A DNA stretch of 64,000 nt from Labia minor (lineage: Eukaryota; Arthropoda; Insecta; Dermaptera; Spongiphoridae). The position numbers were made by a program, and so were the translations under genes. Of the stretch, positions 267 through 62,765 are shown in pieces. How positions within the stretch are numbered: the first letter of the stretch is position 1; the number at the start of each line of letters is the position of its first letter. Where the stretch lies: contig OY720349.1 in assembly GCA_963082975.1 (NCBI GenBank), forward strand, positions 67,268,501 to 67,332,500, written 5' to 3'. Below the pieces are notes generated by a model. That model was not told the origin of the DNA, ran no database searches, and worked only from the letters and a program-made list of their open reading frames with translations.

Positions 267-1843
267 ACTTAGAATATTATAATTATTTATATTATTTATC
301 ATTGTAATTAATTATTGTATTTAGTTTGTTTTCATATTTTTGACCCACAAATGACTTTAAATCATAACGACTCTGAAGACGACATATTTGTACAGAGGAA
401 CAAATATCAGCTTTATATTGGCTATAAAAATAAGCTTTATCAAGACAAGATTTCATCTAATTTTAAAAAAAAAAATAGTGAAAATATTTTATAGTTATTT
501 TTAAATTGTATTAGTTTGTTATATTATATAAAACTTAAATAAAGCTTTGTTTAAATTTATTTAATAATTTTATTTATTTTAATGAATAATTTTATTTATA
601 TTTATGAATCATTTTCTTTATATTAATAGATAACCCTGTAATTTGAAGTCTTACAAAATATATTTATATACAATTAATAAATTAATTAAATTTTAAAATT
701 AGAAAAACATCCGATATAACGAATTGATAACGAAAAGATAAGATTCAATACATTTGTTCGAAGATTCTTCTTCGAAACTGTACCCACGACGCAACAGTGC
801 TTTTAACCTGACCGATTTATATTAGTATTATTATAGAAAAAAATCATTTATTTAATTGTATAGTTATAGAAGTATATGAAGAAGGTATATATACACTTTT
901 AAGAAAGTTGATTTTAAGAATTAATTTCCAAAAACCACAACTGTATATCTCTAATCTAAAATAAGTTAACAAAAAAAAACAAACAAAGTAAAATCCATTT
1001 TTAATACAAGTTAAAAAAAATGTATTATCAATCTGGATCATTATACTTCTTTTTTTTAATAAATGACGCACAAATAAAAAAGAAATGATTTAATACAATA
1101 AAAGTCAGTTCGAATTAACCTGAATTAAATATTGATTTCAATAGAATTCTATTGAATGCCGAGAATTTTCTGATCAAAGAAATTCATTTTCATTCATACA
1201 TTTTATTTTATTGATCACGAATAATCAAAGAAAAGTAAAATGTGAATAAATCAATTTCACTCCTTTCATACAATCGTAAGAGTAAGACTCGATGAAAACT
1301 TTTATTTTAAACCAATATAAGAAATATAATAAATATTTATTTAATTTGTTAAAGAAATAAATAATTGGATAAGAATAAAAATATTACACGCATATAAATG
1401 TTGTGATCTTGAGGGAAGGGACTTAGAGAATGAATGATCTAGCTCAGGATTTCCTAACCATTTTTTTACGATGATCTCTTTTAAACTTTCTTCTCGTTAT
1501 TTTGATGGACACTAAAAGTAGGTACATATATTAATAAAGTTTTACATGAAGTTTAATATGAACATTTAATAGAATAATTTTTAAAAATTTACAACTAGTT
1601 AAACATTTTTAAACACTATTTGCATTTAACAAAACTTACAATTCAATATTTTATAAATTTAATAATTTCATAAATGATTAATAGACATTCCTAACTGAAA
1701 AATTTATTGTGACGGTTGAAGCATGTTTTTTGATAATGTTTTTATTATCATGTTCTAATTTTGATTAATAATTTCATACTTTTTCCATATTATATAAAAA
1801 TTATTGGAAAATATTAATTTACAAAAAAAATTAACTCAATGAA
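267..1843. other. AT-rich stretch without a recognised gene
   Basis: Low-complexity A+T-rich DNA with stops in all frames. The short open frames have no recognisable domain. Nothing beyond simple A/T runs could be supported. Confidence 0.6.
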
Positions 1844-2056
1844 AATAAGTTGACCTGTGGCCAGGTGCAGAACCGACCGACGGTTTGAAATAAATTAATT
1901 TCCAGCTACAGAAACAATTTCAAATAATTTAAATGCTAAAAATACTTTTTTCTGTTAAGAAAATGGATGATTCGTGGAGATATGTAAAAATCTCCACATG
2001 TGAAATTTGGTGTGAAAACAATACCTCCCTTAACCCTTTCGTCGGTCGATTAAAAA
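1844..2056 (-). mobile_element. HINE-like element copy 1, internally deleted
   Basis: The left side carries the AAGTTGACCTGTGGCCAGG stem-loop end and the CCGACCGACGG subterminal repeat. The right side ends with a slightly changed CGTCGGTCGATTAAAAA. About 420 bp of the middle present in full copies, including the GTCY run and the paired TGACGTCA sites, is missing. The GTGGAGAT/ATCTCCAC hairpin near the terminal end is kept. Confidence 0.8.
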
Positions 2057-2540
2057 CTATTTAGTTAAATTTTGTTTTATTAAGACTGAAAATTTAAAAT
2101 AAATATTCCAATGGGAAATTACTTAAAAAATACTTTAAAACATGGAAGATTATATAAATATAAAAAAGTGTATTAAATAGATCTTTAATAAATATAATAT
2201 TACTACTATGCAGGATCCGTTAACAATTATTTGTATTTATTTTTTTTTTATTTAGTTTTTATTTTGTAAAAAAAAATGAAAAACGTTTTTTATAGCAATT
2301 AACAGAGGAGGAAGAGGATGGACCCCATTGGGAATCTCTAATCTAGGCCCTTTCAATCTATATATCTATATAAACAAATATCTATTTTTATATTTACAAA
2401 GTAAAAAATATTATTTATAATAAATTTTTTTTAAGTATGTTAGTTTAGTTAACTAAATCCTTCAAATTCTAAAATTAATTAATTTATTATTCATTTTAAA
2501 CACTTTGTTATTAGATTAAATAGATCATAATATCCCTTTA
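2057..2540. other. AT-rich spacer
   Basis: No gene seen. Poly-A and poly-T runs only. Confidence 0.5.
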
Positions 2541-10570: not shown

Positions 10571-11205
10571 TTACCGACCGACGATAGTAAGGGAGGTATT
10601 GTTGTCACACCAAATTTCACATGTGGAGATTTTTACATATCTCCACGAATCATGCATTTTCTTAACAGAAAAAAATATTTTTAGCATCATGTCTGTCTGT
10701 CCGTCCGTATAGATGTGTACAGCCTGAACGGCTCAACGGATTTTGATAAAATTTGGTATATTTACTTAATACTTCATGTATGATGGATGGATCAACTTTT
10801 GGTGCAAATCCGGAAACCGGAAAAGGTAGTATTAGCGATCGATGATAGGAAGGGAAGGGTTATTTTCACAACAAATTTCACATGAGGAGATTTTTTTATA
10901 TATCACCACGAATCATGCACTTTGTATTGGTTTTATCCTCGAGAAAAATCATCTTTATTAGTTTTTTCTTAATTTAAAATTATATGACGTCATCCAGCCT
11001 TTCATGACGTCACAGCCTGGTCTTACATATATATATTATAAATAAAATAAAATTAAAAATGTTTATATTTATTATTTATGTATCCATATCTGTTTTTTAT
11101 CGCATTAATAGATACATATTAAAATTATTTGAAATTGTTTCTGTAGCTGGAAAATAATTTACTTCAAACCGTCGGTCGGTTCGGACATGGCTACAGGTCA
11201 ACTTA
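10571..11205 (+). mobile_element. HINE-like element copy 2, full length
   Basis: Starts TTTACCGACCGACGATAG at 10571. The offset inverted match CCGTCGGTCGGT lies at 11169-11180, about 25 bp before the other end. That end is a short stem-loop region (here GGACATGGCTACAGGTCAAC, with CAGGTC intact). A GTCY tetranucleotide run lies at 10691-10708. TGACGTCA palindromes start at 10985 and 11005. An asymmetric inverted repeat, GTCY run and terminal stem-loop together match the published layout of Helentron-derived HINE/DINE-1 elements. There is no coding sequence. Confidence 0.8.
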
Positions 11206-15327: not shown

Positions 15328-15941
15328 AATAAGTTGACCTGTGGCCAGGTCCGAACCGACCGACGGTTTGAAATAAATAAATTTCCAGCTACAGAAACAA
15401 TTTCAAATAATTTTAATATATCTATTAATGTAATAAAAAACAAATATGGATATAACATAAATATTTTTAATTTTATTTTATTTATAATATATATGTAAGA
15501 CCAGGCTGTGACGTCATGAATGGCTGGATGACGTCATATAATTTTAATTAAGAAAAAACTAATAAAAATGATTTTTCTCGAGAATAAAATCAATACAAAG
15601 TGAATGATTCGTGATGATATGTAAAAAATCTCCTTATGTGATTTGGTGTGAAAATAACCCTTCCCTTCCTATCGACAATCACTAATACTCCGGTTTCCGG
15701 ATTTGCACCAAAAGTTGATCCATCCATCATACTGATGCATTAAGTAAATATACCAAATTTCATCAAAATCCGTTGAGCCGTTCAGGCTGTACACATCTAT
15801 ACGGACGGACGGACAGACATCATGCTAAAAATACTCTTTTCTGTTAAGAAAATGCATGATTCGTGGAGATATGTAAAAATCTCCACTTGTGAAATTTGGT
15901 GTGAAAACAATACCTCCCTTACTATCGTCGGTCGGTAAAAA
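15328..15941 (-). mobile_element. HINE-like element copy 3, full length
   Basis: Minus orientation. The AAGTTGACCTGTGGCCAGGT stem-loop end is at the left, CCGACCGACGG just inside it, and the CGTCGGTCGGTAAAAA end at the right. TGACGTCA sites start at 15509 and 15529, and a GGAC/GACA run lies at about 15800-15823. The internal ATAGGAAGGG module near 15655-15675 is a diverged direct copy of the terminal module. Confidence 0.85.
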
Positions 15942-18338
15942 TTTAAATTAATAATTAATTAAATAATAATTTTCTTTATAAATAATATGACATTTAGAGA
16001 ATTAAAATGCTTGAAATTATTATTAATATGAATAACCTTTAATATTGTTTTTGTTTTTTTCAATTACTCTTATTAAAATTAGTTTGCTAGAAAAGAATAG
16101 ATCGAAAGATCGCTTTTTCTGATTAAAAGACTATAAAAAATGAAATTCAAAAAAAAAATCTCATAGAAATTTCGAGTTGAGAATATAAATTATATAATAC
16201 TTGCTCCTTCAATAATATCTCATATGGTATATTTGAATGAAAATTGGATATTTATTATTTACATTTTACGTAGATAGGATAAAAACATGTTAAAGAAATA
16301 TTTACAAGAAACTATTTTCTTAAAATAGTAGAAATAATGAGATGAAAAGCAGAATACCATGATATCTAATATACAGATATAGTTATAATATATATATATC
16401 CTATGGCCTATAATACTTTTTATATGATAATTTGAAAGATAAGAGACTTGACCAATTAAAATTATGTAATATTTCTTAATAATATCAACTTGCTTGTATT
16501 TTTTTTTTAATTTTAATAATGTCAAAGTACATAAAAGGTTAAAATAATTAAAAAAAATTAGTGTTAGTTCTTATATATATATATATATATAAGATATTAT
16601 TTCTTTGAAATTAAATAAATGAATTGTTCATAATAAATGAAGTGTATTAAAGATATGATATTTGACTAAATTATATTTGAGATATACATAGATAGATAAT
16701 TAAAATCAATGAAAATTAAAACCTAACAGTGTTAGGCTAACACCAATTTTTAATGTTTTCAATATAAATATTTCACTCTTTTCTAAGAGTAGCATCCTCC
16801 ATTGAATACTTTTGTTATTCCTAATCAACGTCATTTACATCCTCTTTTCTTTATATACCTATATATATATATATTTTAAATTAAATTAAATTTTTCTCTC
16901 AATATTTTTTAATTTATAAATATTATAATTCCAAAAATGGAAGAACATAGAGTTCATGCAATTTCATATTATTTAATTCAATTAAATTATTTTAAATTTT
17001 TAAACATAGACACATAATTAATAAAAATGAAATTTCAAATGGACTGAATTTAAATGAAAGTATATTAAGTAAAACTTACCTATTAATTGCGTGCGCTGGT
17101 TAACTTAATAGAACAAGACTGTTCTCTTTTTTGTTGGTAATCAATGGCTACCTAGAAATAAATTTACATAATTAATACATTATACATAATAGATTTTGTT
17201 TTTATTTTATTTCCCCCCTGTATATTTTATTTCCAAAACAATACATAGAAATATTGATTTTTTTATTTATATATCCATAGCTTGGGGTGCGTTATGTTTG
17301 CCATTTAAATTGATACGATTCCAACTTCATTAATCTAATTGTTTGAGTGAAAATGAAAGTGACAAGCAAAAATGAGAGTGAGAATATTCATTTTCAATTG
17401 ACATGGATTCACTCGATTTATATTGGGTGATATATTGATCTCAACAACATTTTATCTTTCTTCCCTTCCTCTTAAAGAAACCATAACATTAAATTATAAA
17501 GAGAAAAAAAAAAACATTTTATTTACTTTGATATGAATTTATTATATTTTTTTATTATATTTTATAATTGAATATAAAGAACAAATAATAATTATTAAAA
17601 ATTAAAAATTAATATATATATATATATATATTGAAAATGAATTAATTTTAAGTTATTCGAGAACAGAACAGTACAAAATAAAATAAACCACAAATTCTGG
17701 AAATAATTTTTAATCTTTTATTTATTTCCTATTAGTGATAATTTCGTAAAAATTTTAATTGAATTTTAATTATAAATAAAAAATCACAAATGTGAGACTT
17801 AAGAATGAAAAATTACAATAAAAAGAAATTAAAAGAAAATGTATATCCATTCTTATAAAAAAACAATTTGAGAATTTTTTTTTTGTCCTTCCACTTCCAT
17901 TCCCCCTCCAATCAGTAGGAACTTTACGAGAATCCATTTTAGATGGATTTTCTTGTTACATATTCTCTCTAAATGAGAATTAGCTGACCTATGAGGTTTT
18001 AATCTGCGGTGTTACCCTTTTAGGCGAGGATTTAGATTTAGAGGAATGCGAAATTACAATCCTTTTCCCGTTTTGTCACATAATTTAAACTTTAAATCAA
18101 TCTAATCTTATCAAAAAAATCTATTAAAGAATATTTTTTTTATTTTTCATTCTATCTCTTCTTTTCCCATTATCCGTTTTCTCATCCCTCCATTTAGTCG
18201 GGTCTTTCTGGGAATTCTTTTTGAATGAATTTTCTCGATACAGCTTTGAGATAGATAAAAGTTTATTAAATTTTAAAAAATCAAGGGAGAATTTATGAAG
18301 TTAATATATAAATAACTTTTTAATGTTAGATTTGAGAC
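15942..18338. other. AT-rich stretch without a recognised gene
   Basis: Contains TA-dinucleotide runs near 16575, 16860 and 17610. Short open frames (for example 16259-16525 on the minus strand) are Ile/Tyr/Lys-rich products of base composition. No domain or RNA gene was recognised. Confidence 0.5.
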
Positions 18339-18975
18339 TTGAATGAGGTAGTTATACATCTTGCTTGGTGTCATCACATCTGTTCCATCTGGTTTTTTAG
18401 CGTCCCATTTTTTATGGTTTGCCTTCAAATTATGGTCAGAAGCTCATCATTCGAGTCGCTGAATCGTTTCCTTGGTGGATCAGGCTTCTTACCAAGAAAA
18501 TCACGACAGATTTCCAAAGAAATAAGGTTATGCTCAATATGGATTTGCTTAATCAGGTCCCATACTGATGTCTTGTAACCTCCTAAGCGTGAACGAAGAG
18601 CATTGTTGTAACCTTCCAATGCATTGTTTGTTCGAGGCAAACCCATCAAAGAGGCATCGTAGATGTTCCAATGCTCCAATGTCGAATTCGGGGTCAAAAA
18701 GCCAGTCAAAAATTGTTCACCTAGCCAAGTGCGCTCGAAGTAAGGAAAAAGATCACGAAGTTTTGCCCTGTTGGTCGTCCAGCTAATGCTTGGTAGGCTA
18801 CAATGACTTTTGATGGTGGTACCAAAACCAAAGCTGCAAGAGTTCGTAAATGAATGGAGTTGTCAGGATTATCTATATCATTATAGAGCTTCCAAACTTC
18901 TGGTATTGATTTGATGTTTCTATCAATGCATTGAGCAAAATGAAAAAGACAACCTCTGATGATAGTAAATTTCAC
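18339..18975 (-). pseudogene. Mutator-like (MULE) transposase fragment, frameshifted
   Basis: Two overlapping minus-strand pieces read as the C-terminal half of a MULE-type transposase. The upstream piece (18975-18721) begins with the CLFHFAQ block and continues through NPDNSIHLRTLAALVLVPP. The downstream piece (18709-18425) carries PRTNNALEGYNNALRSRLGG, the conserved region after the catalytic domain. A frameshift separates them near 18715, and the N-terminal DNA-binding region and first catalytic residues are absent. I place it in the MULE superfamily by pattern; the family within it is unknown. Confidence 0.75.
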
Positions 18976-19677
18976 AAATTACGTTGTATATTCCCTGGTG
19001 AAATATACGGTGCAAATGGTGTATTTTGTATTTGGAATCATTAAGCTATTAAAACGTATGCTAATAAACGGAATTTGAGTAAATTCCCTTTATTTTACAT
19101 ACGAATTTGACACCCCTATTTTTTTGGAAAAATCACGTGTGTGGGCCCTATGTATGTATTTTTTGACCTACTTTTGGTCCAGGCCCGATTACCTCCTTGG
19201 GAGGTCGTGTCTCAGGCAACTGGGTGTCATGCTCACTTTGTGATTTAATTTTCAAAGTCACAATTAAAATTAATACAAAAATTAAAAAATTTGTTTTTAG
19301 TGATTTTTTCTTTTAGGGATTTTTTCAGTCAGCGATATTTTTATTTTGGATTTATTCTTTTAGGCATATTTGCATTTAGGGATTTTTACACGATTTCTTT
19401 CAAAAAAATAAGCACTTTTTATTTTTGTTAAAATTTTTTTAAAATAAAATAAACTTACTTATTATACTTTAAGAATTCTTTTTTTTTTCAAATAAAAAGA
19501 ATGATTATATTTTTTCTTTTCTATTTGTAATATAGTAATTTAAATTTTTTTCTCTTCTGGTTGCGCCACTGGCTAAGACAATATATTTAGTAGAACAGAG
19601 GAAAAGTATGAAGACACAAAATCTTAACATACAAAACGTAGAATTTGAAAAAAGATAGAAAGATTTTAATATTTAGA
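18976..19677. other. AT-rich stretch next to the MULE fragment
   Basis: A moderately GC-richer patch (19130-19250) and repeated TTTTAGGGATTTTT-like phrases near 19300-19390. No gene or family recognised. Confidence 0.4.
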
Positions 19678-19962: not shown

Positions 19963-20602
19963 TTTTTACCGACCGACGATAGTAAGGGAGGTATTGTTTT
20001 CACACCAAATTTCACATGTGGAGATTTTTACATATCTCCACGAATCATGCATTTTCTTAACAGAAAAAAGTATTTTTACCATGATGTCTGTCCGTCCGTC
20101 CGTCTGTCCGTCCGTCCGTATAGATGTGTACAGCCTGAACCGCTGAACGGATTTTGATGAAAGTTGGTATATTTACTTAATGCATCAGTATGATGAATTG
20201 ATCAATTTTGACGCAAATCCGGAAACCGGAAGTGGTAGTATTAGCGATCGACGATAGGAAGGGAAGGGTTATGTTCACACCAAATTTCACATGAGGAGAT
20301 TTTTTACATATCACCACGAAACATGCACTTTGTATTGGTTTTATCCTCTAGAAAAATCATCTTTATTAGTTTTTTGTCAATTTAAAATTATGTGACGTCA
20401 TCCAACCATTCATGACGTCACAACCTGTTCTTACATATATATTATAAATAAAATAAAATTAAAAATATTTATGTTATATTTATATCTGTTTTTATCGCAT
20501 TAATAGATACATATTAAAATTATTTGAAATTGTTTCTGTAGCTGGAAATTAATTTAGTTCAAACCGTCGGTCGGTTCGGACATGGCCACAGGTCAACATA
20601 TT
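19963..20602 (+). mobile_element. HINE-like element copy 4, full length
   Basis: TTTTTACCGACCGACGATAG start and CCGTCGGTCGG offset repeat near 20563-20575, followed by a weakened stem-loop end. It has the longest GTCY run of the family in this window (20086-20119). TGACGTCA sites start at 20393 and 20413. It is inserted at the edge of LINE-A sequence. Confidence 0.85.
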
Positions 20603-22540
20603 ATAAAACATTATACAATTTGGGAAAATTTATTTTGATATATTAATTTTAATATAAATAAAGGATATTCGATTAATTCGACAAATAAATAAATAAATTT
20701 CAATTCTTCTTAGACGAAATAAAAAAATAATAACAATAAGTAAATTATATATAATATGTATTTTATTAAAATAATTATCTTTCAGTAAATATTAATTTAT
20801 ATTTACGATTTCAAAGATTTGGAGTCAAATCTCTTTCCACCGAATCATTTCATCAGGTTTGTAAACAAAAATAGCGACTCCGGGCTAAATCAGGAAAAAG
20901 GTGATACTATTGATGGATGTCAAACAAAATCAAAAAGACCCAGCTGTTTCGACAGGAGTCAGCTGATAGTTGCCTGCTGACAGGTGCAGTGTTGCGATTT
21001 CATTTAAGAGATAGGAAATTCAAAAAGTCACTCTGACTTATTAACCTGCCCTCGTACTTATTCTTATAAAAGAAAATCGTTCTAATGTAATATAGTATAT
21101 ATAAAATGTATAATTATGGTTATTTTATTAGTCTAGTTTAATCATTTCAAATTAATCATTTAATAATTAATATGAAGTAGGTTATTTTGCATTTTCTTTT
21201 TAGAGGTACTTTTAAAGGTATTTATTTTATCAGAAAAAATATTTTCATTTCCTCTATTTTTTCCACACATTCCTTCTAATCTAATTCAATGCAATTGTAA
21301 TCTAACTGGAATTTAAAGGTCAGCGATTCTCTTGTGAACATTTTGCAACAAGTACTACTGATATTAGTAACTTTTTTTACCATGCAAATAAATAATTAAT
21401 AATTATTAATTTTTTTTTTAAATAAAAATGATATATAATTAAATAATACAAACAAATTTTTACAATTAACCTTTAAGAAATATTAATATTAATATAATAA
21501 TGATCAATTGATATTATCTCAAAAACTTTTGAAAAGTCAAATGGTAAACAACGCTTTAAGATCAGTTTAATTGCACAAGAAGTGAAATTTATTTAATCTA
21601 TATGAATTTTTGAAGTTTTTAATTATTCTCAAATATAATAATGATAAATAACTATTATAAATATTTTTCGTCAAATTATTTTTCAGATTATATAGAATTA
21701 TTTGTCCACCCTTCGTTTAATTATTTCAAAAGTTACGAAGCAAGAATTTTCTAAAAGCATATTTAATTATTCATGTTTATTGGCCCCCGGGGAGTTGAAA
21801 AAGGAAGGTCAAGGATTTTGTATCGTCCCGTGTGTTCCGGTTATGACTTCCGGTCTCTTGACTCGGAAAAGCTAATCTCAACAAAAATAGAGAGAGAAAG
21901 AGAAAGAGAAAGAGAGAGAGAGACCAATAAGAATTATGAGATAGAATGAAAATTTTTTTTCACTAAAAGAATTAAAATTTAAACATTAAAAAATAAGGAT
22001 TTTATAAGAAAAAATATCAGCATATTATGTATATTTCTCTTTATGAAGTTAATCCTCCTATTTGAAAGTTATTAAAATATAATAACATTATAATATATTT
22101 TAAAAAAAGGTCATACATACATCATACAGTCTATCGAATGATACATACAGAGTATTGATTTAACTCAAAGCGCTAATATATATAAAATATGAAAATTAAT
22201 GTATAATAAAATGGCGAAGACTGTCCAAGGCCCAAATAGCAGACCCCGAAAGGGATTATTGCTAGGAAATAAATGAAGAAAGATTTAATTAAATTTAAAA
22301 GAATTAAAAGAATTGAAAGAATGACCCCTGTACTCCCGATGTAAAACATAGAAATTTGTTGAAAGTCTGTATGCGAAAGGTTTTAATTCATTTTAATTAA
22401 ATCAGTATATTTTTTATTTCATTTGGATTTTCGTTTTAATATATATAATAATTTTTCGAAATAGCCACTGAACCGAATATCACCGAATCTGAGCGAAATT
22501 TACCGAGCGTTACGTCCAGTGACGATTGGATATTATATAT
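20603..22540. other. AT-rich region with a small E-box cluster
   Basis: No gene recognised. A GC-richer patch at 20810-21060 contains CAGCTG at 20941 and 20960 and CAGGTG at 20981. Another GC-richer patch is at 21780-21885. A GA-rich microsatellite runs through about 21888-21923. Confidence 0.45.
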
Positions 22541-22728
22541 TACCACGTTTTTCTTAGCTTGCTTTCTTGTTTATCTGTTCGCGTCAAATCTTGCAATCGA
22601 AATTTCGACCACTTCCAGTCATCCAATCGCTCTGAAACTTTTCAGAGTTATGTATTCTGGATGACAATACAATAAAATAACACATTCGTAGCTTGCAAGT
22701 GTTTAATTAGAGCATAATTAATGAATAT
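22541..22728 (+). repeat. Dispersed repeat pair, copy 1
   Basis: Near-identical, in the same direction, to 23847-24052. The shared core runs from TACCACGTTTTTCTTAGC through a CATCCAATCGCTCTGAAAC block to AGCATAATTAATGAATAT. Non-coding. It could be a MITE or the LTRs of a small element, since the copies are 1.3 kb apart. Confidence 0.7.
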
Positions 22729-23846
22729 TTGTATTTTGTTAACTTAAAAAGGAGAAACAATAATAATACAACAAAAGGCCCTTTCCAAAACTTACCTTTC
22801 TCAATACATAATACAAAAGAAGAAAACAACAAAAGGGACTTTGTCAAAACATTAAAAATAAATAATACAGATGTCCATAGTCCGCTTGTTTAAAAAAATA
22901 TTCAAGAGTTGATTCTAGTATGTATTAAATATATTCAATATATTAAATATTAAATATATTATTTTTGATCTAAACGAATAGAGAATGGATTTTACATAAA
23001 ATTTGTAATCATTTCACAAATTAATAATATAATAAATGACACATTGTGAATTGACGATAAAAATAAATATATTTCATTAGATCTTATTTTATTATACTAG
23101 CAAAAATTGTATAAATATATTTTTAATTTTCTTTCGAAATTAATTAAAAAATTTTAAAATATTTTAAATATAAAAAATATTGATACAATATCTAATACAA
23201 AAACGAGACGGGATGCAAATATAATACATTAATTAATAATAATAATCAAAATATTAAAATCCGTTTAAATAAGAAGTTTGAAAAAATGTTCAGGTCGCTC
23301 CCCTCCAACTAAATGACAGTCCTGATCGTATGTTCCATGCTGCGAATTAAATTTGGATTAAGCATCATAAATTCTAAAATAATAATTAAATAAATTTCAA
23401 ATAACGATTAGATATTTATTAAATGAATTACTAATAAATAATATTCAATCTAATGAAATAAAGAATCTCTATATATTATATACACGGTAAATGTATTAGA
23501 AAAAATAAAAAGCCATTTTTTTTTTATGAAGAATTTTGATTTTTTTAAATTATAATTTCTGACTTTTGATTGATTACATTTAAAATCATTTTAAAGTTAT
23601 AATTTCGTCTTTACAAAGAGAGATAAAAAATTAATAAAATCAAAATATTGAAAAAATATAATAGGGAGGTAGAAAAAAGGTTCAAACTCCCCTCTTCTTA
23701 TTTTTACTTAACGGGTCTTCTGATTGGTTGCCTGTTTCGACACACCTTTTTTCGACTTAAACGCCACCCTCAATTTCCTTCAGCTATCATTTGCTCTCTG
23801 CATCTCACCAAGTCATCATTAGCACTCTTGCTAACTGAGTGTATTT

Positions 23847-24052
23847 TACCACGTTTTTCTTAGCTTGCTTTCTTGTTTGTTTGTTTGTTTATTTATCTGT
23901 TCGGGTCAAATCTTGCAATCGAAATTTCGACCACTTCCAGTCATCCAATCGCTCTGAAACTTTTCAGAGTAATGTATTCTGGATGACAATACAATAATAC
24001 AATAATAATTCGTAGCTTGCAAGTGTTTAATTAGAGCATAATTAATGAATAT
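23847..24052 (+). repeat. Dispersed repeat pair, copy 2
   Basis: Second copy of the 22541 unit, with an expanded GTTT tetranucleotide run near its start and a small ACAATA duplication. The sequence between the copies has no retroelement domain that I can recognise. Confidence 0.7.
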
Positions 24053-24410
24053 AATTTTGTATGGGAAAATCAAAACAAAAAGTGTAAATATTTAAATTTG
24101 AAAAAAACCGTTAAAAACCCGTTAAAAGAATAATATAATATGTATAATATTTAAAATGTAAATAAATTTGAAAGAAGGTATATTAATGTTTTGTACTGTA
24201 ATTTAGAAAACAAAATTTAAATTTATGATGAGTTTTAGGCAATAAAGAATTAAAATATGACAAATTTAAAAATTTCTCTTTATAATTCAATTTAAATTTA
24301 TTACTTTCAGGATAATAGTATTTCATGACTATTAAAGTCAATCAAAAAACTTAAAAGTAGTATAGGTCAAGTGAAATCGATTGCAATATATGAAGACTAA
24401 AAAGTAGAAA

Positions 24411-25265
24411 ATAATACTTTATATAAAAAAAAAACTTTTTTAAAAAACCACGTTTTTAACGCACTAAAAAGAAGAAAATAATTTTTCTGAAACCCCATAG
24501 GTACTGACATTACAAACAAGAGATATGATTTGAAGAAAATTTTCTATAACGTAAAACGTGGGGCGCAAATAATAATAAATTTTTTAAATGCAATATAATT
24601 TCTTTGATTAATTTATTTCAATATCCATGGATTTATATTTTAAGTTTTATATTTTTTACCAGACTTTTTGTAAAAGGGAATATTATTAGCAATCCAACAG
24701 AATACTTTTATTAATGTAAATTTTTTTTGGAAAATTAATTCCTTAATATTAAATAAACATCTTCAATTTACACTTTAGAAATTTTATTAACATAAATATT
24801 AAATATTTGCTAGAAGTTTTGCAGTAGCAAAATTTAGTTTTAGATTTCTTCAAGTTAAATTTCTTATATTATTTACCAGAATATTGTTAGGATGTCATTT
24901 TTTATCAGAATTTTTTAAAAGTGAATATTATTAGTAATCTAAAGGTAATCTTTTCATAAATTAAATTTACCTCTTTTAAAAATTTCGATAAGTTATAAGC
25001 TTTACTTTTTGAAGCTAATTAAAATATGAATTCATTTATCCTATTAATTTGTACCTAATAACATTTATTTATAAATTTTTATACGATACAGAATATTTTA
25101 GCCATAGTTGCGCCCCACGTTTTACGTTATAGAAAATTTTCTTCAAATCATATCTCTTGTTTGTAATGTCAGTACCTATGGGGTTTCAGAAAAATTATTT
25201 TCTTCTTTTTAGTGCGTTAAAAACGTGGTTTTTTAAAAAAGTTTTTTTTTTATATAAAGTATTAT
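24411..25265. mobile_element. Element with perfect 158-bp terminal inverted repeats
   Basis: The arms 24411-24568 and 25108-25265 are, as far as I can read, perfect reverse complements. They hold a CCACGTTTTTAACGCAC block and end inward at GTGGGGCGCAA. The roughly 540-bp interior is AT-rich and non-coding. Diverged relatives of the arm (CACTAAAAAGAATAAAAT then a GGGCGC box) occur at 38407, 47150, 61113 and 62766. Identical arms imply a young insertion or gene conversion. The superfamily is not identified. Confidence 0.8.
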
Positions 25266-28054
25266 ATATAATAAAATTAGCTTTGAAAAATTTTTAAAAT
25301 CTTGTACTGTGACGCCAAGGTGAATGATAAAGTTAATTAATTTCAAAAAAGTTTGTGAAACGCTTATATAAGATATTTATATATATATAGATTCAATAAT
25401 TCAAAAGTAAAATAAATAAATCACATTTTTAGTAAGTTATATATATAAATGCTCAGATAGAGAATTCGACTTCTAGTCATTCAATCTTAATGTTTGTTTA
25501 AAAATTTAAGTTGATCTATATATTTTTAAGTCTACTTAATCGATTATCAAAATTGAGGAAAAAAAGTTCAAACCTGCTTAATCATGATCTCTCTCTGTAG
25601 TTTTATATATAAATATACAAAAAAAGGGGCTTTAAAAAAATGAAGATGAGATTAAATACGGTAAAACTGTTATTCCATCACGAGTTGTTGTTTGCTACTG
25701 GTTTAACTTTCTATCAACACTCACTATTAAATAAACCTTATAATATTTTCAATCATAATAAATTATGTAGTACAACAAACATGATTGTTTTCTATTTATA
25801 TTATATCTAAGAGCGTTTAAATAAAATAAAATAATTCTAGGATCTAATATATTATTCTTATTTATGTTTATTTTAAATGTATTTTTGTATTAAATTACAT
25901 CACGTCAATTTGAATAGGTTAGGTAATATGTATGTTGGGGTGAGGAAAATGTTTCTCATGCTGGTGTAACTTCCGAAAAGTGTAGCCTATATAGAAAAAA
26001 ATAAATTGAATGTTTAACCACGAAATCATAATTATTTAATATTTATTTTTTCAAGATTATTTTGAATGTATAAAAAAATAAAATTCTCAACACAAAAAAC
26101 AAAGAAAGTCTTGTTGCATATAAAAACCAATTAAAAATTAAATGATGAAAAGCAATTCAAATAATAAAGAGATACAAATTTTGGTGAAAATATAAAAAAC
26201 ATCTGATAACGAATTTTTTAAATATCACTGAATAATAAATATTTAAATAATCCAATCTCAGATCCCACTCAAATAAATGTCTAAGGAGCATAAGGTATTA
26301 TTAGATGAATAAAAACCAATCAGTTTAGTCAAATTTTTGATAATAAAGAAAAATTGATAATGAATTAACAAATTACAAACTTTTGTTGGTAGGGATATAT
26401 TTAAAAATACAATTAAAATCCACAATAAATTGTTTGTTAAAAATTTAATTAAAAATCAAACCAATTTTATCTTATTTGCTAAAATCAATTAGATTGCTGT
26501 CGTTTATAAAATTATTAAATTCAGTCATTAAATTAATTTTGAGTAATTTTTCCTTTTTACCCCATTTTATTTCAAATTAAAGACTAATCAATTGTGTTTC
26601 AATCAGTTTTAAAAAGTTTGCTTTCTTGTTTTCAATATCACTTTTACGTAGGACAATTGTATTATTTTTTTGAGTTATCAAAATATTTAGGTTTTAAAAA
26701 AAATATTAATTGTTTAATTAAAGGAATTTATTATAAAATGATTTCATGTCTGTCAATCCTTAATGTTTTTGTATAAGTTATAATAATACCATATTTTTGA
26801 AAAATCTCATATACTTAATCATTAGTAAATAAAATAAATCAAAACTTTACAAGTTGAAATTGAAAAAATTTATTAGAAAAATATAAAGACTTTTAAAAAT
26901 AGTTAAATTTTTTCTTATCCCTAAATAATTTTTAATAGTAACTACGAATATTACGTATAATAATTAATATGTAAATAATATATTCATACATAAAAAATTA
27001 AATTATTTTAATATAAATAGTTCAACATCAAATATAGGGTTAAAAAAATAGAATACCTTCCTGTCACTTCTTATGCACCCTTCCGACAAAATGAGTTTGT
27101 TTGTATTCTACCCATTTTTTAAATAAGCCAAAGTTATTAAATATTTTTTAAAATTAAATTAAATAAATAAATTTCTAAATATTTTTTCTTTGGTTTAAAA
27201 ATAGATGAGAGAAACTTCGAACTGTCTTAATATTTAACACATGATTTTTAACATTCATAAACCACATTAGGAAAGTAAAAAAATCTGGAGCAGAGGGTTA
27301 TTCCTGGGAATTCCCGGGAAAATTCTTCAATTTTTATTTCCCGTTTCCCGGGAAAAAACGAAACATTTCCCGAGGAAAAAAAAAAAATTATTTTCCATGC
27401 TGATTGTGATTCCGATACCGAAATCTTTGTTTCTTAACTGAAATAGTCGTAATAAATATAAAATATGTACAAGTGTACATACATTTTCTTTTGTTAGAAT
27501 GTTTTTCCTTTTCTTTCTTTCTCTCCCTTTAATTTTTCTTTATAATTTTTCTATTTTTTGAGTTTTTTTACAATGAACTATGGCAGATGGCAGTTGCCAT
27601 TTCTAAATTATTTTGTATTTAACTTTTTTTTGTATATCTATATAGTTATATGTCATCACGTGTAATAGAAATTGGTATAACTTATAACTGTTAATCAACC
27701 TTAAGACTTAAAATTCGATTTCACAAGCTTGGGTCTGTTTTAATTGCCATACCTGACCCCTTGGTAAGGTTTCTATATAAAATGGCTCTTTAACAGGTAA
27801 CAATAATAAAATACACTATTGCACTTGACCATTTGGAAAGTTAGTAATTCTCCTCATACTCTTGAAATTAACCCCTCTTCATCAACTATCCATTAACTTA
27901 AATTAATATAAATAAGCTGTTGTTGAGAGCGAGTAAGGTAAAGACATAATTATATTTTATGATAAATAAATAAATATTATGATTTCGACCTGATATTTTA
28001 ATTAATGTTCCTCATTTTTAAAATTATCTAAATTGTATCGTATTTGATTAATTT
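25266..28054. other. AT-rich stretch without a recognised gene
   Basis: No domain seen. A palindromic patch of two TTCCCGGGAA sites (27311-27320 and about 27345-27354), of a type common in decayed DNA transposons, is the only structured signal. A TATATAAA with no supporting gene lies near 27773. Confidence 0.45.
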
Positions 28055-28207
28055 CTCCTAACTTCGTGTTACGCGTCGTGAGCCGATCTCTCAATTTCAA
28101 TACAAGCAAATAATGATCCGAATCACAATCTGCCCCTCTATAAACTCTGACATCCAGAATGTTTGACTGGCGTCTTTGGTCTACCAGAACATAATCAATT
28201 TGATTAC
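28055..28207 (-). pseudogene. LINE endonuclease domain fragment
   Basis: The minus strand translates to NQIDYVLVD, then RRQSNILDVRVYRGAD, then CDSDHYLLVLKLRDRL. This is the end of the apurinic-like (EEP) endonuclease domain of a LINE, including its SDH catalytic block. Only about 48 residues remain. It could be the 5' part of the LINE-A family, but no connecting sequence is present. Confidence 0.8.
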
Positions 28208-28858
28208 ATTACATTACATTCATTTAATGATATTCAACTAAATAAAAAAACCAGCAAAATTGTATATTGTTTCCAGAGGAAATTCGACACTTCAGGTCCG
28301 TTTCAAGTAACTTAATTTTATATTTAGTCTTATGCGAGAATTTCTTCTAATTTCATGACAACGTTAACACCCTTATCCTAAATTTAAAAATTAATCATGT
28401 CTTTTTTTCTTCTTCAGTCATTTAAGTGAAAAGAAGGATTTTTGTTACATTTGATACTTGAAATCAATTAAATAATATTATCTCGTGAAATTGAATTCTT
28501 TGCTAAAGTGGAATGTTTTGATTTGATTTAAAAAGAAAAAATGTGAAGAAAAAAACCTGAAAAGAAAACAAATAATAACAACGAGAATTCGATACAAATT
28601 TCCAAATATTGAGTCTGGTAAAAAGTTCAATGCCTTTTTCATGTCACCAACAATATTTTAAGAAAATATGCAAACTATGAAAAAAAAGGTAATGAAAACA
28701 ATTGGGGTAATCCCACATGTTGGTATAGTACTATAAAATAAAATATAAACAATTCTAGATGTAATATTATAAAGTTGGGATAGAAATTTACGCTGAATCT
28801 TTTATCATTAATTCAATTCAAATTTCATTTTCCAAAAAAAAAAAAAAAAAATCACATC

Positions 28859-28930
28859 GGGCTCGTCCGGGATTTGAACCCGGGACCTCTCGCACCCAAA
28901 GCGAGAATCATACCCCTAGACCAACGAGCC
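28859..28930 (-). tRNA. tRNA-Pro: tRNA-Pro (anticodon UGG)
   Basis: A 72-nt gene with a complete cloverleaf: GGCTCGT acceptor strand pairing with ACGAGCC, anticodon loop TTTGGGT with anticodon TGG, and B box GGTTCAAATCC. It decodes proline CCA and, by wobble, other CCN codons. A run of about 19 T residues downstream serves as Pol III terminator. It is identical to the other three copies in the window. Confidence 0.97.
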
Positions 28931-29015
28931 GTGATATTAATTATTATCTATCACAAGTTTCCGGAGAGGAGAAGCGAAAAGAGAGAGCAATTGCACTGGC
29001 CTTGAATTTCTTTAC

Positions 29016-29053
29016 CTTGTTGCTTCCGTTCTCGGTTGTAATCCTGTACGTTC
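29016..29053 (-). other. Exon-like 38-nt segment (duplicon A)
   Basis: On the minus strand a pyrimidine-rich tract ends TTATATTCTAG, followed by 38 nt and then GTAAAG, so it is bounded like a short exon. One frame reads TYRITTENGSNK and stays open through the putative donor for 35 codons in all. Copy C is identical over the 38 nt and copy B keeps the frame. Whether it is transcribed is unknown. Confidence 0.3.
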
Positions 29054-29618
29054 CTAGAATATAAGCAAAAAAAATATTAGTTAAGGGTCAAAAGGAACCT
29101 CTTAGAAAGGACAAAAAGAGAAAAGTGAAATGAAATAAAGGGAACTGGCCAAATTTTCGCCAATAATAGTTTAAATTTTAAATTTATTATAGTTATTCAA
29201 TTCAATTTTGAACAAACAATTAATTACTTTACAAAACACAGAATTTAGGCTACAGAAAAAAGTAAATTGAATTTGAGAATTTAAATATGATACATGGTTA
29301 ATGTTGGTTTGTGTGTCACAAAAGGGGTCACAGATAAAAAGAGGAGGTGTAATAAAAACTAATAAAGAAGAAAATTATTGAATTAAAGTTAAATGTGAAA
29401 TTAAAACTGAACTGATTTTGTCGCCAGCAATAGTTCAAATAAGGTAATTGAGAAAATTGAAGTCTGGGAATGAGACAATGGACGTCGTTATAACGACAAT
29501 TGTAAAGTGCCCGATAAAAATTCAATTTTATAATAATAAGATATCCAATTTATAATCATATAAAAAAATTGATAATATAAAAGGCCGATAATTTAAATTT
29601 AAACTTAAAATAGACAAA

Positions 29619-30190
29619 AATAAGTTGACCTGTGGCGAGGTCCGAACCGACCGACGGTTTGAAGTAAATTAATTTCCAGCTATAGAAACAATTTCAAATA
29701 ATTTTAATATACCTATTAATGTAATAAAAAACAAATATGGATATAACATAAATATTTTTAATTTTATTTTATTTATAATATATATGTAAGACCAGGCTGT
29801 GACGTCATGAATGGCTGGATGACGTCATATAATTTTAAATCAAGAAAAAACTAATAAATATGATTTTTCTCGAGGATATATAAAACAATCTCCTCATGTG
29901 AAATTTGGTGTGAAAATAACCCTTCCCTTCCTATCGTCGATCGCTAATACTACCACTTCCGGTTTCTGGAATTGCACCAAAAGTTGATCAATTCATCCCA
30001 CTGATGCATTAAGTAAATATACCAAATTTCATCAAAATCGGTTGAGCCGTTCAGGCTGTACACATCTATACGGACGGACAGACATCATGCTAAAAATACT
30101 TTTTTCTGTTAAGAAAATGCATGATTCGTGGTGATATGTGAAATTTGGTGTGAAAACAATACCTCCCTTACTATCGTCGGTCGGTAAAAA
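29619..30190 (-). mobile_element. HINE-like element copy 5
   Basis: Minus orientation. The stem-loop end at the left has one change (GACCTGTGGCGAGGTC), with CCGACCGACGG inside it and CGTCGGTCGGTAAAAA at the right. TGACGTCA sites start at 29800 and 29820, and a short GGAC/GACA run lies near 30070. It is slightly shorter than full copies, with small deletions in the hairpin region near 30130 and near the internal module. Confidence 0.85.
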
Positions 30191-32995: not shown

Positions 32996-34039
32996 GGCGA
33001 GAATAAAATCAGAGAATTTGAAAATATAATCAATATATTTATATATATTTATATATATATATATATATTTCTTTTTCCACTCTAATCTAGGTAACTCCAA
33101 AAAAGCGTTTTCAACCCTCTTTAGAATTTATAACGATATTTCTGGATCTCTCATAAAAGTTATAATTAAGACTCATATGAGTGAGAAAAGGTGGTAAAAC
33201 GATCGTTGATTAAACTAAAGACAAAGAAGACAGATAATATAAATTAGCTAATTAAAGGAGAAATAAAACTTTGAATGAGGTTGTTCATGAGGAATGTGTT
33301 TGTTTCCTCCACATTCTTATGATTCCACAAAGATAAAAAGATAACATAACATGGATAAATTGGAGAGATGGATAAAATAAAAATCAAAAAATATTTTTTT
33401 TTTTGTAACTTGAATGGGAAGTAAAGTTAATTATTGATTTTATAATAATGTAGTTAATATTAATTTATATATTTTGTAAGAATATCTGAAAACGATACCT
33501 CCCTTATTATCGACGGTCGGTAAAAAGAATTATTTTTAAAAATTAGAAAAATAAAGAAAATAAACTAAAACCAATCATAGACTAGAAAATAAATCATTAA
33601 ACATAAAAACAGGATATAAGATTTAGAAAAATTAACGTGAAATAGAAATAAATGGGCACCAAATTTATTAAAAATACGAATTAGAAATATGTTCTATAAG
33701 AAATAAAAAGGGAAAGATAAAATCAAAAATATTACATGTTTAAAATGTTACGTATTACGTTATTACAAGAGAAGAAATTAAAGTAAATGAAAAAAGATAA
33801 GCATATTGTATAAGAAAAAAATAAAATTTGAAAGCATAATGTGAAAAGCAGAATAGGAAAAAAAACGTTTTGGATTTTAATTTAAATGTAAAATAAATAT
33901 ATTAAAATATATAATAGAAAAGACAAATTCCCCAAACTGCTTGCAAACATCCAAGTGCTCTTGAACGCTCTCTCATCAACCCTACCCTAAATGGTTCACT
34001 TTGAGCCACATTGACGATAGAATTCAAAATAAGAAAATA
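32996..34039. other. AT-rich stretch with a HINE end fragment
   Basis: No gene. Contains a TA run near 33040-33068, A-rich DNA and the short HINE terminus at 33486-33526. Confidence 0.5.
33486..33526 (-). mobile_element. HINE terminal fragment (copy 9)
   Basis: Only the terminal 40 bp or so of the family remain: a CCTCCCTTATTATCG module and the CGGTCGGTAAAAA end. Confidence 0.7.
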
Positions 34040-35222
34040 AGCTGGAGTGTCTTCACTCACCTATCTCGCAAATTTTAATTGGATTAATTAACATATATTA
34101 TATTTAAATTAAATTTATTTAATTAAATTATAAATTAAAATTAATAAATAATATTTATTAAACCAGTGCGTGTTTGGCTCTTTGTTGATGGCACCACGAC
34201 ACGTGTTGGCACGTGAGATTTGCAGTGTTAAAAAATTAATTTATACAATTTTTAATCATGCGAAAAACTATCAAATATATATCTTTATTTTTACCGACCG
34301 ACGATAGTAAGGGAGGTATTGTTTTCACACCAAATTTCACATGTGGAGATTTTTACATATCTCCACGAATCATGCATTTTCTTAACAGAAAAAAGTATTT
34401 TTAGCATGATGTCTCTCCGTCCGTCTGTCAGTCTGTCCGTCCGTATAGATGTGTACAGCCTGAACGGCTCAACCGATTTTGATGAAATTTGGTATATTTA
34501 CTTAATGCATCAGTGGGATGAATTGATCAACTTTTGGTGCAAATCCGGAAACCGGAAGTGGTAGTATTAGCGATCGACGATAGGAAGGGAAGGGTTATTT
34601 TCACACCAAATTTCACATGAGGAGATTTTTTTATATATAACCACGAATCGTGCACTTTGTATTGGTTTTATCCTCGGGAAAATCATATTTATTAGTTTTT
34701 TCTTGATTTAAAATTATATGACGTCATCCAGCCATTCATGACGTCACAGCCTGGTCTTGCATATATATTATAAATAAAATAAAATTAAAAATGTTTATAT
34801 TTATTATTTATGTATCCATATCTGTTTTTTATTACATTAATAGATATATTAAAATTATTTGAAATTGTTTCTCTAGCTGGAAATTAATTTACTTCAAACC
34901 GTCGGTCGGTTCGGACCTGTTTAGAGGGAAAAAAATGAAAACGTGGTAATTAATGGTCTTCTTCCGAATGAGCTACATTTCTCAAATGTTGATAGAAAAC
35001 TACGAATTTTGAATAATGCCCGTGTACCAAATTTCATTATTCTAGCTCAAACCGTTTTTGCGTAATTTTTGTCTACATACACACATACACACACATACAG
35101 CCATTTTTCTCAACCTTATTGTTAGTGAAAATGACCCAGGATCCTTAAAAGGTATAAAAACATCAAAATTTTGACTTTGAAAATTTTCGTGATCGCAATA
35201 CTATCTCTGGCGAGATAGTAAA
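34040..35222 (+). repeat. Repeat family Y, copy 1, split by a HINE
   Basis: 34040-34287 and 34921-35222 together match the uninterrupted copy at 42628-43032. The family starts AGCTGGAGTGTCT then CTATCTCGCAAAT. Its right end is a hairpin, CTATCTC-TGGC-GAGATAG, at about 35201-35218. The interior has a CACACATA-type microsatellite. Non-coding; a rolling-circle or MITE origin is possible. Confidence 0.75.
34288..34920 (+). mobile_element. HINE-like element copy 6, inside repeat Y
   Basis: TTTTACCGACCGACGATAG start, long interrupted GTCY run (about 34411-34444), TGACGTCA sites starting at 34719 and 34739, and the offset CCGTCGGTCGGT at 34899-34910. The terminal stem-loop is cut short at GGACCTG, after which repeat Y resumes. 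The uninterrupted Y at 42866 shows the local layout without the element. Confidence 0.88.
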
Positions 35223-36967: not shown

Positions 36968-37039
36968 GGGCTCGTCCGGGATTTGAACCCGGGACCTCTC
37001 GCACCCAAAGCGAGAATCATACCCCTAGACCAACGAGCC
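36968..37039 (-). tRNA. tRNA-Pro: tRNA-Pro (anticodon UGG)
   Basis: Identical 72-nt copy with intact A and B boxes and anticodon TGG, followed by a long T run on its own strand. Likely functional. Confidence 0.97.
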
Positions 37040-39028: not shown

Positions 39029-39100
39029 GGGCTCGTCCGGGATTTGAACCCGGGACCTCTCGCACCCAAAGCGAGAATCATACCCCTAGACCAACGAGCC
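39029..39100 (-). tRNA. tRNA-Pro: tRNA-Pro (anticodon UGG), isolated copy
   Basis: Identical 72-nt gene directly followed by a long T run (39011-39027 on the plus strand as A). Its flanks do not match the three duplicons, so it moved or was copied with only the tRNA and T run. A 131-residue antisense-style frame over it is an artefact. Confidence 0.97.
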
Positions 39101-42627: not shown

Positions 42628-43032
42628 TAGCTGGAGTGTCTCCACTCGACTATCTCGCAAATTTGAGAATTGGATTAAATAACATAATATATTATATTTA
42701 AATTAAATTTAATTAATTATAAATTATAAATTAAAATTAATTTGTGTTGATGGCACCACGTGTTGTTTCTGGTACTTTCAGCTATTCAATCAAGCTGAAA
42801 TTCTATATATAGCAGTTTTATACAATTTTTAATCATATGAAAAATTATACATATATCTTTATTTTTACGGTCACTTTAGAGGAAAAAAAATCAAAACGTT
42901 GTAGGTAATGACCCTCTTCCAGTTGAGCTACAATTCTCTAAAGTTGATAGATAACTACGAATTTTGAATAATGCCCATTTACCAAATTTAATGATTCTAG
43001 CTCAAACCGTTTTTGCGTAATCTTGTCTACAT
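42628..43032 (+). repeat. Repeat family Y, copy 2, uninterrupted
   Basis: Matches both flanks of the HINE at 34288. At the equivalent site it reads CTTTATTTTTACGGTCACTT with no HINE. It ends at a CACACA run that merges with the GA microsatellite ahead of the piggyBac remnant, so the Y right end is missing. Confidence 0.75.
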
Positions 43033-43075
43033 ACACACACACAGAGAGAGAGAGAGAGAGACAGAGAGAGATGAT
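43033..43075 (+). repeat. CA/GA microsatellite
   Basis: CACACA followed by an AGAGAG run. Replication slippage or recombination here joins repeat Y to the piggyBac remnant. Confidence 0.85.
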
Positions 43076-44491
43076 GGTGAAGAATGCGACTATTTTTTGA
43101 AATTTTTTGACGAAGAACTAATGAAACATATTGCAGACGAGACTAATAAATATTACAATTATTGTGAGTATACTGGTAGGAAAAAATCGAAGAAATGGAT
43201 TAACACAACCGTAGGTGAATTATATAGATTCTTCGAATTGGTGATGCTAATGCCACATGTAAATAAACACTCAATAAAGGACTACTGGTCCAAAGATGAG
43301 ATGATACAAACCTATTTTTTTTATTAAATTTATGAGTAGAGATTGGTTCGTTCAGCTACTTCGATATTTGCACTTTTTCGATAATACAAATCATATTATA
43401 TATAATGACAAATTTTGGAAGATTAAATTTATATTTGATAATCTTACAACAAAATTTTCAAATTTCTTCCACTCTTTCCAAAAAATGGTTATCGACGAGT
43501 CATTATTATTGTTCAAAGGCAGACTTGACTTGAAGCAAAACATCCCCTACAAAAAGACACCGATTTGGAATAAAAACTTTTGTATTATGTGATTGCTAAA
43601 CGGGAATGGTTTTAGACTTACTAGCGTACACAGGAGCTGCAACAGACATAGTGCGTGATAATTTATTAGGTTTTAGTGATAGTGTTATAAAAAAATCTGA
43701 TGGCTAAATACGAAAATAGAGGGCATATTTTATATACAGAGAATCGGTATACAAGCCCTAATTTGGCCATGTATCTTCACAACAAAAACACTTGATTTTG
43801 CGGTACAGTAAAACGGAACCGGAAAAATTTTCCTAAGTTTCCACTAAAAGTACCACGTGGAACTTGCGTTTTGAAACCCAGCAACAATATCTTAGCGATT
43901 CCATGGAGATGTTTTTATGGTGATTGCGATACATAAAGGGCAATTGAAAACAAGAGAAAATAATCAAGGACAGAATAGAGTGAAACCAGACTGCGTTATT
44001 GACTACACTCAAAATATGAGGATGGTAGATAAAGTGGATATGCAAATTGTTGCAACTGTGGAGTGTGTTACGAAATCCATCAAGTTGTATAAGAAATTAT
44101 TTTTCCATTTGATGAATCTAAGTCTACTCATTAGTTATAACTTATATTTAGTTAAGACTGGGAACAATAAATTGGTGCTGAAAGACTTTTCGCAAAATAT
44201 TATTCGGCAACTGATTCGTCGGTATGAAGTACTCACTGCAAGGCGACCCGGAAGGCAACGCAGTGATAATTTTGATCGATTGACTGCAGTTAATTTTATG
44301 GAAAGACATTCCCATCATATATTTGCCATCAACTGGTAAACGACAGAGGCTAAAAGAATTGTCATGTCTGCGCAAACGCCCAACTTTGGGAACAAAAACG
44401 CACAGCGATGACAATTTGGTGTCCAGAGTGCAAAGTGCCTCTTTGTATAGGGGAGTGTTATAAGAACTACCACTCCAGGAAAAAATTCTGA
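43070..44491 (+). pseudogene. piggyBac-like transposase, broken
   Basis: Three frame pieces cover most of a piggyBac transposase (DDE_Tnp_1_7). The first (to 43327) has the EELMKHIADETNKY and WINTTVGELYRFF region. The second (43332-43592) has the KMVIDESLLLFKGR motif with the first catalytic Asp. The third, at about 43680-44340 with stops and a frame change, includes ENRYTSPNLAMYL, KPDCVIDYTQNMRMVDKVD with another catalytic Asp, and the KLYKKLFFHL helix. A C-terminal cysteine-rich zinc-binding tail (WCPECK then CIGECYKNYH) ends at 44491. The N terminus is lost into the microsatellite. Several frameshifts and stops make it inactive. Confidence 0.92.
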
Positions 44492-45372: not shown

Positions 45373-45444
45373 GGCTCGTTGGTCTAGGGGTATGATTCTC
45401 GCTTTGGGTGCGAGAGGTCCCGGGTTCAAATCCCGGACGAGCCC
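45373..45444 (+). tRNA. tRNA-Pro: tRNA-Pro (anticodon UGG)
   Basis: Identical 72-nt gene, plus strand, with T-run terminator from about 45452. It belongs to the inverted duplicon. Confidence 0.97.
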
Positions 45445-49955: not shown

Positions 49956-49998
49956 ATACTATATGTATATATATATATATATCTAATCAAAAACATAC

Positions 49999-50220
49999 CT
50001 GTTAAAAAGGGGGCCAAGTTCCTATCGGCTATTTGTTTGCCTAAAAAAGGGTTCAAATCCATCCCAATGCCAAGTTTAGGTACACTTCAAAATCATTCAT
50101 AATCATTTTTTTTATCAACAGCCTGATCCACTGGTAAACATTTGGCATTCCAAAGAATCGCCACCACACCCAGTCCTCCGCCTCCTGCATCCAGGCACGC
50201 CACTTTATTCACGTCAACGG
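49999..50220 (-). pseudogene. Same exon-like fragment, left palindrome arm
   Basis: Mirror copy of 50740-50962 on the minus strand, with the same stops and the same GTATGT donor at its end. The spacer copy at about 50370-50440 keeps only the glycine-rich part. Confidence 0.35.
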
Positions 50221-62750: not shown

Positions 62751-62765
62751 TGAATAAATAAAACT

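Follow-up and report, generated by a model that had tools for sequence, protein, structure and literature searches.

The repeat copies found in the analysed stretch of the Labia minor genome are best explained as non-autonomous Helentrons (HINEs) of the DINE-1 kind, a reading to which we give a probability of about 0.87. The stretch, called the window here, is 64,000 nucleotides long (C6:67268501-67332500) and belongs to a 604-Mb assembly in 71 contigs. The assignment had been made in the original prediction and is supported by subTIRs, a 3′ hairpin, a GTCY run, the lack of coding sequence, a T-tract target, clean unoccupied sites and Helentron-type Reps in the same genome. The defining features of HINE and DINE-1 elements were taken from the available parts of Thomas et al. 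2014 (PMC4067079) and Yang and Barbash 2008 (PMC2374699). As judged from the literature text searched, in which its exact end and core strings gave 0 matches, the family is a new one of a known kind.

As shown in Table 1, eight copies and one fragment were delimited in the window by BLAST with the 10571 copy and a 40-copy consensus as queries, in agreement with the number first predicted. The string ACCGACCGACG with at most 2 mismatches occurred 28 times, some of these being GTCY runs or inner repeats, against 0.87 expected from shuffles (largest 3). The eight copies and the fragment covered 4,247 of the 64,000 bases (6.6%). 3′ ends with at most 3 mismatches numbered 4 in the window against 2.36 expected at genome density (Poisson P 0.21), so the window is not clearly richer in HINEs than the genome, and the statement that the family dominates it did not hold. 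Across the genome, 22,266 3′ ends (11,175 + 11,091), about 1 per 27 kb, and 31,372 5′ ends (15,668 + 15,704) were counted with at most 3 mismatches, while reversed-pattern controls for both ends gave 0 matches. The copy number in 604 Mb is of the order of 20,000-30,000. An explanation of the excess of 5′ over 3′ ends by 3′ truncation was dropped, because the 5′ and 3′ patterns were unequal in length (31 and 38 nt) and some hairpin regions diverge.

Table 1. Copies of the HINE family in the window, parts of the reference copy and unoccupied target sites (window positions).
Feature	Position	Strand	Basis or remark
HINE copy, full length, reference, 635 bp	10571-11205	+	
5′ subTIR ACCGACCGACG, 11 bp	10573-10583	+	mismatch search
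GTCY microsatellite	10691-10708	+	
Core CAGCCTGAACGGCTCAACGGATTTTGATAAAATTTGGTAT	10720-10759	+	conserved across 40 copies
Decayed inner repeat of the ~92 bp at the 5′ terminus, 82.6% identical	10832-10923	+	BLAST
3′ subTIR CGTCGGTCGGT, inverted	11170-11180	+	25-27 nt inside 3′ end
3′ hairpin, mismatched in the 10571 copy	11184-11199	+	folding
Internally deleted HINE copy (1844 copy), lacking consensus 126-553	1838-2060	-	BLAST
HINE copy, full length, perfect 3′ hairpin	15328-15940	-	BLAST, folding
HINE copy, full length	19963-20602	+	BLAST
HINE copy, small internal deletions	29619-30190	-	BLAST
5′-end fragment of HINE	33487-33526	-	BLAST
HINE copy, 3′ end cut within hairpin	34288-34919	+	BLAST
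Short-form HINE, ~355 bp	47843-48199	-	BLAST
HINE copy without most of inner repeat	55112-55638	-	BLAST
T5 then ACGG, paralogous unoccupied site for 34288 copy and L028	42862-42866	.	flank comparison
T8, paralogous unoccupied site for L043	42883-42890	-	3′ flank matches 9 bases only

When the genome was searched at the DNA level for relatives of the 10571 copy, 4,396 candidates came up; 40 of them were scored, at 91-100% identity. Further copies, 39 in all, were fetched with flanks of ~500 bp each (L048 was flank only). Forty copies aligned over 696 columns yielded a 649-letter consensus, short flanks included, from which they diverge by 1.5-6.2%, the sample being biased to close relatives of the query. 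The ends were analysed in 43 copies, namely 36 fetched copies aligned over the whole query and seven of the eight window copies; L030, L033, L040 and the 34288 copy were omitted.

From the 5′ end the element reads T-run, TTACCGACCGACGATAG..., GTCY run and core CTGAACGGCTCAACGGATTTTGATGAAATTTGG, followed by the decayed repeat of the first ~92 bp, an AT-rich section, CGTCGGTCGGT, the hairpin and AACTTATT. The subTIRs, 11 bp long where the rule for HINEs asks for at least 11 bp, lie as they do in HINEs, the 5′ one close to the end and the 3′ one internal. The core CAGCCTGAACGGCTCAACGGATTTTGATAAAATTTGGTAT resembles, we presume, the cores of arthropod DINE-like repeats. A GTCY run of 12-32 nt, a DINE-1 feature, was measured by motif search in 37 of the 43 copies; the search missed the 1844 and 47843 copies (deleted), the 55112 copy (run present, anchor changed), L021, L025 and L036. 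The layout predicted as common to the window copies thus stood for the ACCGACCGACG end and the offset inverted CGTCGGTCGGT, and fell short for the GTCY run, which is present in six of the eight and absent from 1844 and 47843. The 47843 copy lacks ~170 bp (reference positions 91-261), GTCY run and core included.

The consensus hairpin, GACCTG-GCCA-CAGGTC, has a stem of 6 bp and stops 8 nt short of the 3′ end, in the range of about 8-35 nt that characterises HINEs; the predicted GACCTG-TGGC-CAGGTC is this same hairpin on the opposite strand. A terminal stem-loop had been claimed for all copies. It is present in the family, with a perfect GACCTG/CAGGTC stem in the consensus and the 15328 copy, but the stem is weaker in some copies, being imperfect or shorter in 10571, 29619 and 55112, and the 34288 copy is cut inside it. 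Folding of the consensus 3′ end gave z -3.78, with 0 of 200 shuffles as good. Two of four folded window hairpins gave z -3.15 and -4.47 (equalled by 1 and 0 of 200 shuffles), and the other two, at -1.84 and -1.64, were not clearly better than shuffles.

The family has no recognisable coding capacity. Three stop-to-stop frames of at least 100 aa overlap the window copies and none of them had a Pfam match; the consensus compared with two Helentron proteins and one retrotransposon protein gave a best E of only 0.29. No tRNA or Rfam family at the gathering cut-off overlapped the window copies, and the core gave 0 matches in IMG/VR viral contigs. Units with paired exact ends numbered 36 in the first 3.7 Mb of C1: 29 were 602-678 nt long, five were 310-372 nt and two were longer (971 and 1,348), while 24 of the 60 exact 3′ ends listed for this region stood without an exact 5′ end to pair with. 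The family occurs as units of about 640 bp and as a shorter form of 310-372 bp.

The window carries several other features. Four tRNA-Pro (TGG) genes (28859-28930, 36968-37039, 39029-39100 and 45373-45444) lie on both strands and share flanks of up to 302 nt at 99%, a small duplicated cluster. Just downstream of the unoccupied HINE target, 43001-44339 holds two DDE_Tnp_1_7 fragments identified by domain, which we take to be piggyBac-like. A fold-back element occupies 49974-50988, with 265-nt inverted arms (97%), 232 nt between them and further arms outside. The GC-rich stretch 62684-62760 ends in GAGCAGCTAGT, like the 3′ end of a canonical Helitron (CTRR), and relatives of it, about 88-89% identical, stand beside the C1:85855789 and L077 genes.

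Occupied and unoccupied sites were compared by eye from the flanks. The unoccupied counterparts of four insertions indicate entry into T-tracts, with ~1-2 T added in three of them. The repeat that holds the 34288 copy has its unoccupied paralogue in the window at 42862-42866 and a further one in L099. Comparison with the 34288 copy and L028 showed that the surrounding bases were not duplicated; the T counts at this site are unclear because the 34288 copy lost its 3′ end and L028 lost host bases (~10 beside the T-tract are missing). L043 is inserted in the same repeat on the other strand; T5+T4 flank the element there, and the unoccupied tract measures T8 in the window and T7 in L099. The L021 insertion has T5+T4 against T7 in its counterpart L016, and L041, which sits within the antisense A6/T6 tract of a second HINE, has T5+T3 against T6. 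These insertions, together with the genome-wide 5-T junctions described below, bear out the expectation that the flanks lie in T-tracts. The duplication test, which counts exact matches only, found a flank match of at least 3 bases after T-run stripping in one of 43 copies against 0.855 in shuffled flanks, so that the consistent target duplication named in advance as contrary evidence was not seen. The other contrary finding, a DDE element bearing the family's ends, was not encountered in the sequences read, which had been chosen for family copies and Helentron genes. An exception missed by the exact test is L014, with a 17-base flank stretch on both sides containing one mismatch. Insertion is thus into a T-rich target, with paralogous empty sites and no non-T duplication; in such tracts a duplication of 1-2 T is indistinguishable from the element's own terminal T's.

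One rival reading is a MITE, a cut-and-paste DDE element with inverted-repeat ends and a TT target duplication. L041 and L021 add exactly 2 T, and L043 adds 1-2 T, as a TT duplication would, and high copy number, small size, inverted repeats and the lack of a recognisable protein are all MITE-like. We nevertheless consider a MITE unlikely, since the 3′ inverted repeat is not terminal, lying 25-27 nt inside the end and followed by a hairpin near the end, and since non-T duplication did not exceed that in shuffles in the 43 copies. Derivation from a canonical Helitron, with 5′ TC, 3′ CTRR and insertion between A and T, would agree with the hairpin near the 3′ end and with the many GLPH-type Reps in the genome (22 of 30 loci read). 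The ends, however, read TTACCG... and ...CAACTTATT, neither TC nor CTRR, subTIRs are present and the target is a T-tract, which makes this derivation very improbable. Tens of thousands of dispersed short copies would also suit a SINE or other retroposon, but we give this next to no credence: no tRNA or other Rfam family was found in the window's copies, the 43 copies show neither a 3′ poly-A tail nor a target duplication of non-T bases, 5′ ends are common genome-wide, and four unoccupied sites are clean and without duplication.

The HINE reading implies that Helentron proteins should be at hand, because an element without its own enzyme must be moved by such a protein. The genome has 104 matches to PF14214 at E 0.001 or better, of which 30 were fetched by that search and a few more by place. 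According to the available part of Thomas et al. 2014 (PMC4067079), GLPH is diagnostic of Helitron-type and GSPH of Helentron-type Reps. The 30 loci divided into 22 with GLPH, four with YWWR...GSPH (L074-L077) and four without the motif; seven loci of the GLPH type (L055-L061) had identical Rep scores. At C5:46740114-46771612, five PF14214 matches, each of 112.5 bits, lie about 5.7-9.8 kb apart, all with stops, which by sequence is a tandem array of putatively decayed Rep genes.

The gene at C1:47868109 (L081/L082, C1:47859500-47873500) has a 2,181-aa open frame reading YERVEFQMRGSPH, with a GSPH motif. Helitron_like_N (85.6 bits) and PIF1 (110.8 bits) scored over the cut-off, and Exo_endo_phos_2 (20.3 of 27.4) and Peptidase_C48 (16.6 of 20.7) below it. 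The C-terminal C48/Ulp1-like tail matched SENP8 structures weakly (E 0.0035); no paper combining Helentron and Ulp1 was found among the matches listed in a literature search. L088 is 46% identical to this protein over 492 residues and has PIF1 and OTU over the cut-off. The GSPH-type Reps of L074-L077 and C1:47868109, together with L088, show that Helentron-type genes are present in the genome.

The search for an autonomous Helentron with the same two ends, proposed in the original prediction, turned up Helentron-type Rep/PIF1 genes, but none had the family's ends among 55 loci (L049-L103), which consist of Rep, helicase or endonuclease matches with flanks, many of them covering only 1.5 kb beside the match and stopping short of the element ends. 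Clear HINE pieces in L049-L096 occurred only in L073 and L081, both read as insertions; the sole likeness in L078 was a 69%-identical AT-rich stretch, and L097-L103 showed no family sequence beyond 22-24-base matches. The C1:47868109 gene had been suggested as a partner by family positions 5-536 lying 1.9 kb upstream of the ORF. It was ruled out, since this upstream copy has no 3′ end and lies inside a repeat with an uninterrupted unit nearby. In addition, a second copy of this Helentron, 98.7% identical over 3,461 bases, fixes the position of its 3′ end, and the sequence there is not that of the HINE family. L096-L098, ~99% alike over their last 302-309 bases, proved to be three copies of another Helentron with a third kind of end, and the HINE 3′ fragment in L073, upstream of a decayed Rep match, is taken as a chance neighbour. 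The family's ends were also absent from the 13 kb surrounding each of two further genes, L077 and C1:85855789 (1,785 and 1,754 aa). Just downstream of the 1,754-aa Rep/helicase frame (C1:85847500-85860500; L083, L084) is a 1,419-aa open frame that by eye resembles a retrotransposon polyprotein. Window positions 24172-25274 and 18334-19279 are 93.6-99.5% identical to sequence flanking the Helentron-type gene of L077-L080 on its 3′ side, and the common pieces include an element with 164-nt inverted repeats, which suggests recently shared mobile DNA.

The closest known systems were compared through the available parts of the respective papers. The Labia minor family is like HINE-Mo of the mite Metaseiulus (Galendromus) occidentalis (PMC4067079) in having a 5′ subTIR within a few nt of the end, a 3′ palindrome set back from the 3′ end by at least ~8 nt, a T-rich target without target-site modification and Helentrons in the same genome. 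Its subTIRs measure 11 bp against 12-15 bp in HINE-Mo, its 3′ subTIR lies 25-27 nt from the 3′ end against about 38-60 in the mite, and it has a GTCY run, a difference for which the mite was compared by description. With Drosophila DINE-1/INE-1 (PMC2374699) it shares subTIRs, a GTCY-rich microsatellite, a conserved core, a 3′ stem-loop and insertion into T-runs; in D. yakuba, 10 of 10 DINE-1 sites were between TT and 8 of 10 at one position in WTTTT. Unlike DINE-1 as described there, the family has an 11-bp subTIR that differs from the 13-bp ones tabulated for Drosophila, an inner repeat that duplicates the 5′ end of the element itself, and a junction preferably after 5 T, in a minority after 2 T. 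A duplicated short (<200 bp) 5′ terminus with one 3′ terminus is described for Helitrons of Fusarium oxysporum, for which self-insertion was proposed (PMC5148889), and a self-nested copy is likewise found in Labia minor (L041). The Fusarium elements are, however, fungal non-canonical Helitrons, whereas the inner 5′ end in Labia minor is decayed and this form stands at high copy.

The position of the junction within the T-tract was strongly uneven. The 5′ T-run of the 43 copies measured 5 in 28, 6 in five, 7 in two, 4 in none, 3 in one, 2 in six and 0 in one. Exact matches genome-wide numbered 12,730 (6,292 + 6,438) for the 5-T junction, 245 (122 + 123) for the 4-T junction and 2,151 (1,047 + 1,104) for the 2-T junction. 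Runs of exactly 4 T outnumber those of exactly 5 T in the window (1,215 and 496, both strands), so base composition does not explain the ratio of 5-T to 4-T junctions. The base preceding 2-T junctions was A in 28 of the 31 rows shown with letters and G in the others, and the 2-T class may reflect either another register or a variant of the end. Since the L021 and L041 sites each gain a total of just 2 T, the host should have supplied three or more of the five T's; the junction would then fall at a preferred position of the tract, as these few sites suggest.

On established Helentron biology, a Helentron Rep/helicase would nick at the 5′ subTIR, the helicase would peel off one strand while rolling-circle copying proceeded from the 5′ end, the 3′ hairpin and inverted subTIR would act as terminator, and the HINE copy would be joined into a T-tract. 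Helentron proteins that could do so are encoded in the genome. Judging by its inner second 5′ end, the 640-bp form may have come from one HINE inserting into another, along the lines proposed for the Fusarium elements. A fuller version, which we hold only tentatively and would not yet bet on, joins a composite unit to a near-fixed register and recurrent self-insertion at A6/T6. A HINE, or just the ~260 bp at its 5′ end that carry the GTCY run and the core, would have been joined before a simpler HINE of ~365 bp, whose own 5′ subTIR decayed afterwards, and the transposase would read T-tracts in a near-fixed way, so that the 5′ junction would follow exactly 5 T's or, less frequently, 2. With such a register the family's own A6/T6 tract would be targeted recurrently and could keep generating composites.

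L041 is a self-nested HINE, and L020 and L039 are joined on one side to another of the family's T-tracts. A gap of 67-68 nt from a 3′ end to an opposite 5′ end was seen for three of the 60 exact 3′ ends in the first 3.7 Mb of C1. Its interpretation as true terminal repeats was dropped, because L041, with the same spacing, is a HINE in the A6/T6 of another HINE. Sites of the outer and inner 5′ segments were mixed in L104 and the 47843 copy (13 outer/4 inner and 11/6), and so do not separate a short form that is the precursor from one that is a deletion product.

These results place a very abundant repeat in a known transposon group and offer thousands of insertion junctions. In an otherwise ordinary HINE family, the more interesting points are the register preferred within the T-tract and an inner 5′ end derived from the element itself. 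How T-tracts are read was left open in the DINE-1 and HINE papers because T-rich targets hide the ends, and 245 4-T junctions against 12,730 5-T junctions make a sharp, testable statement on how Helentrons read them.
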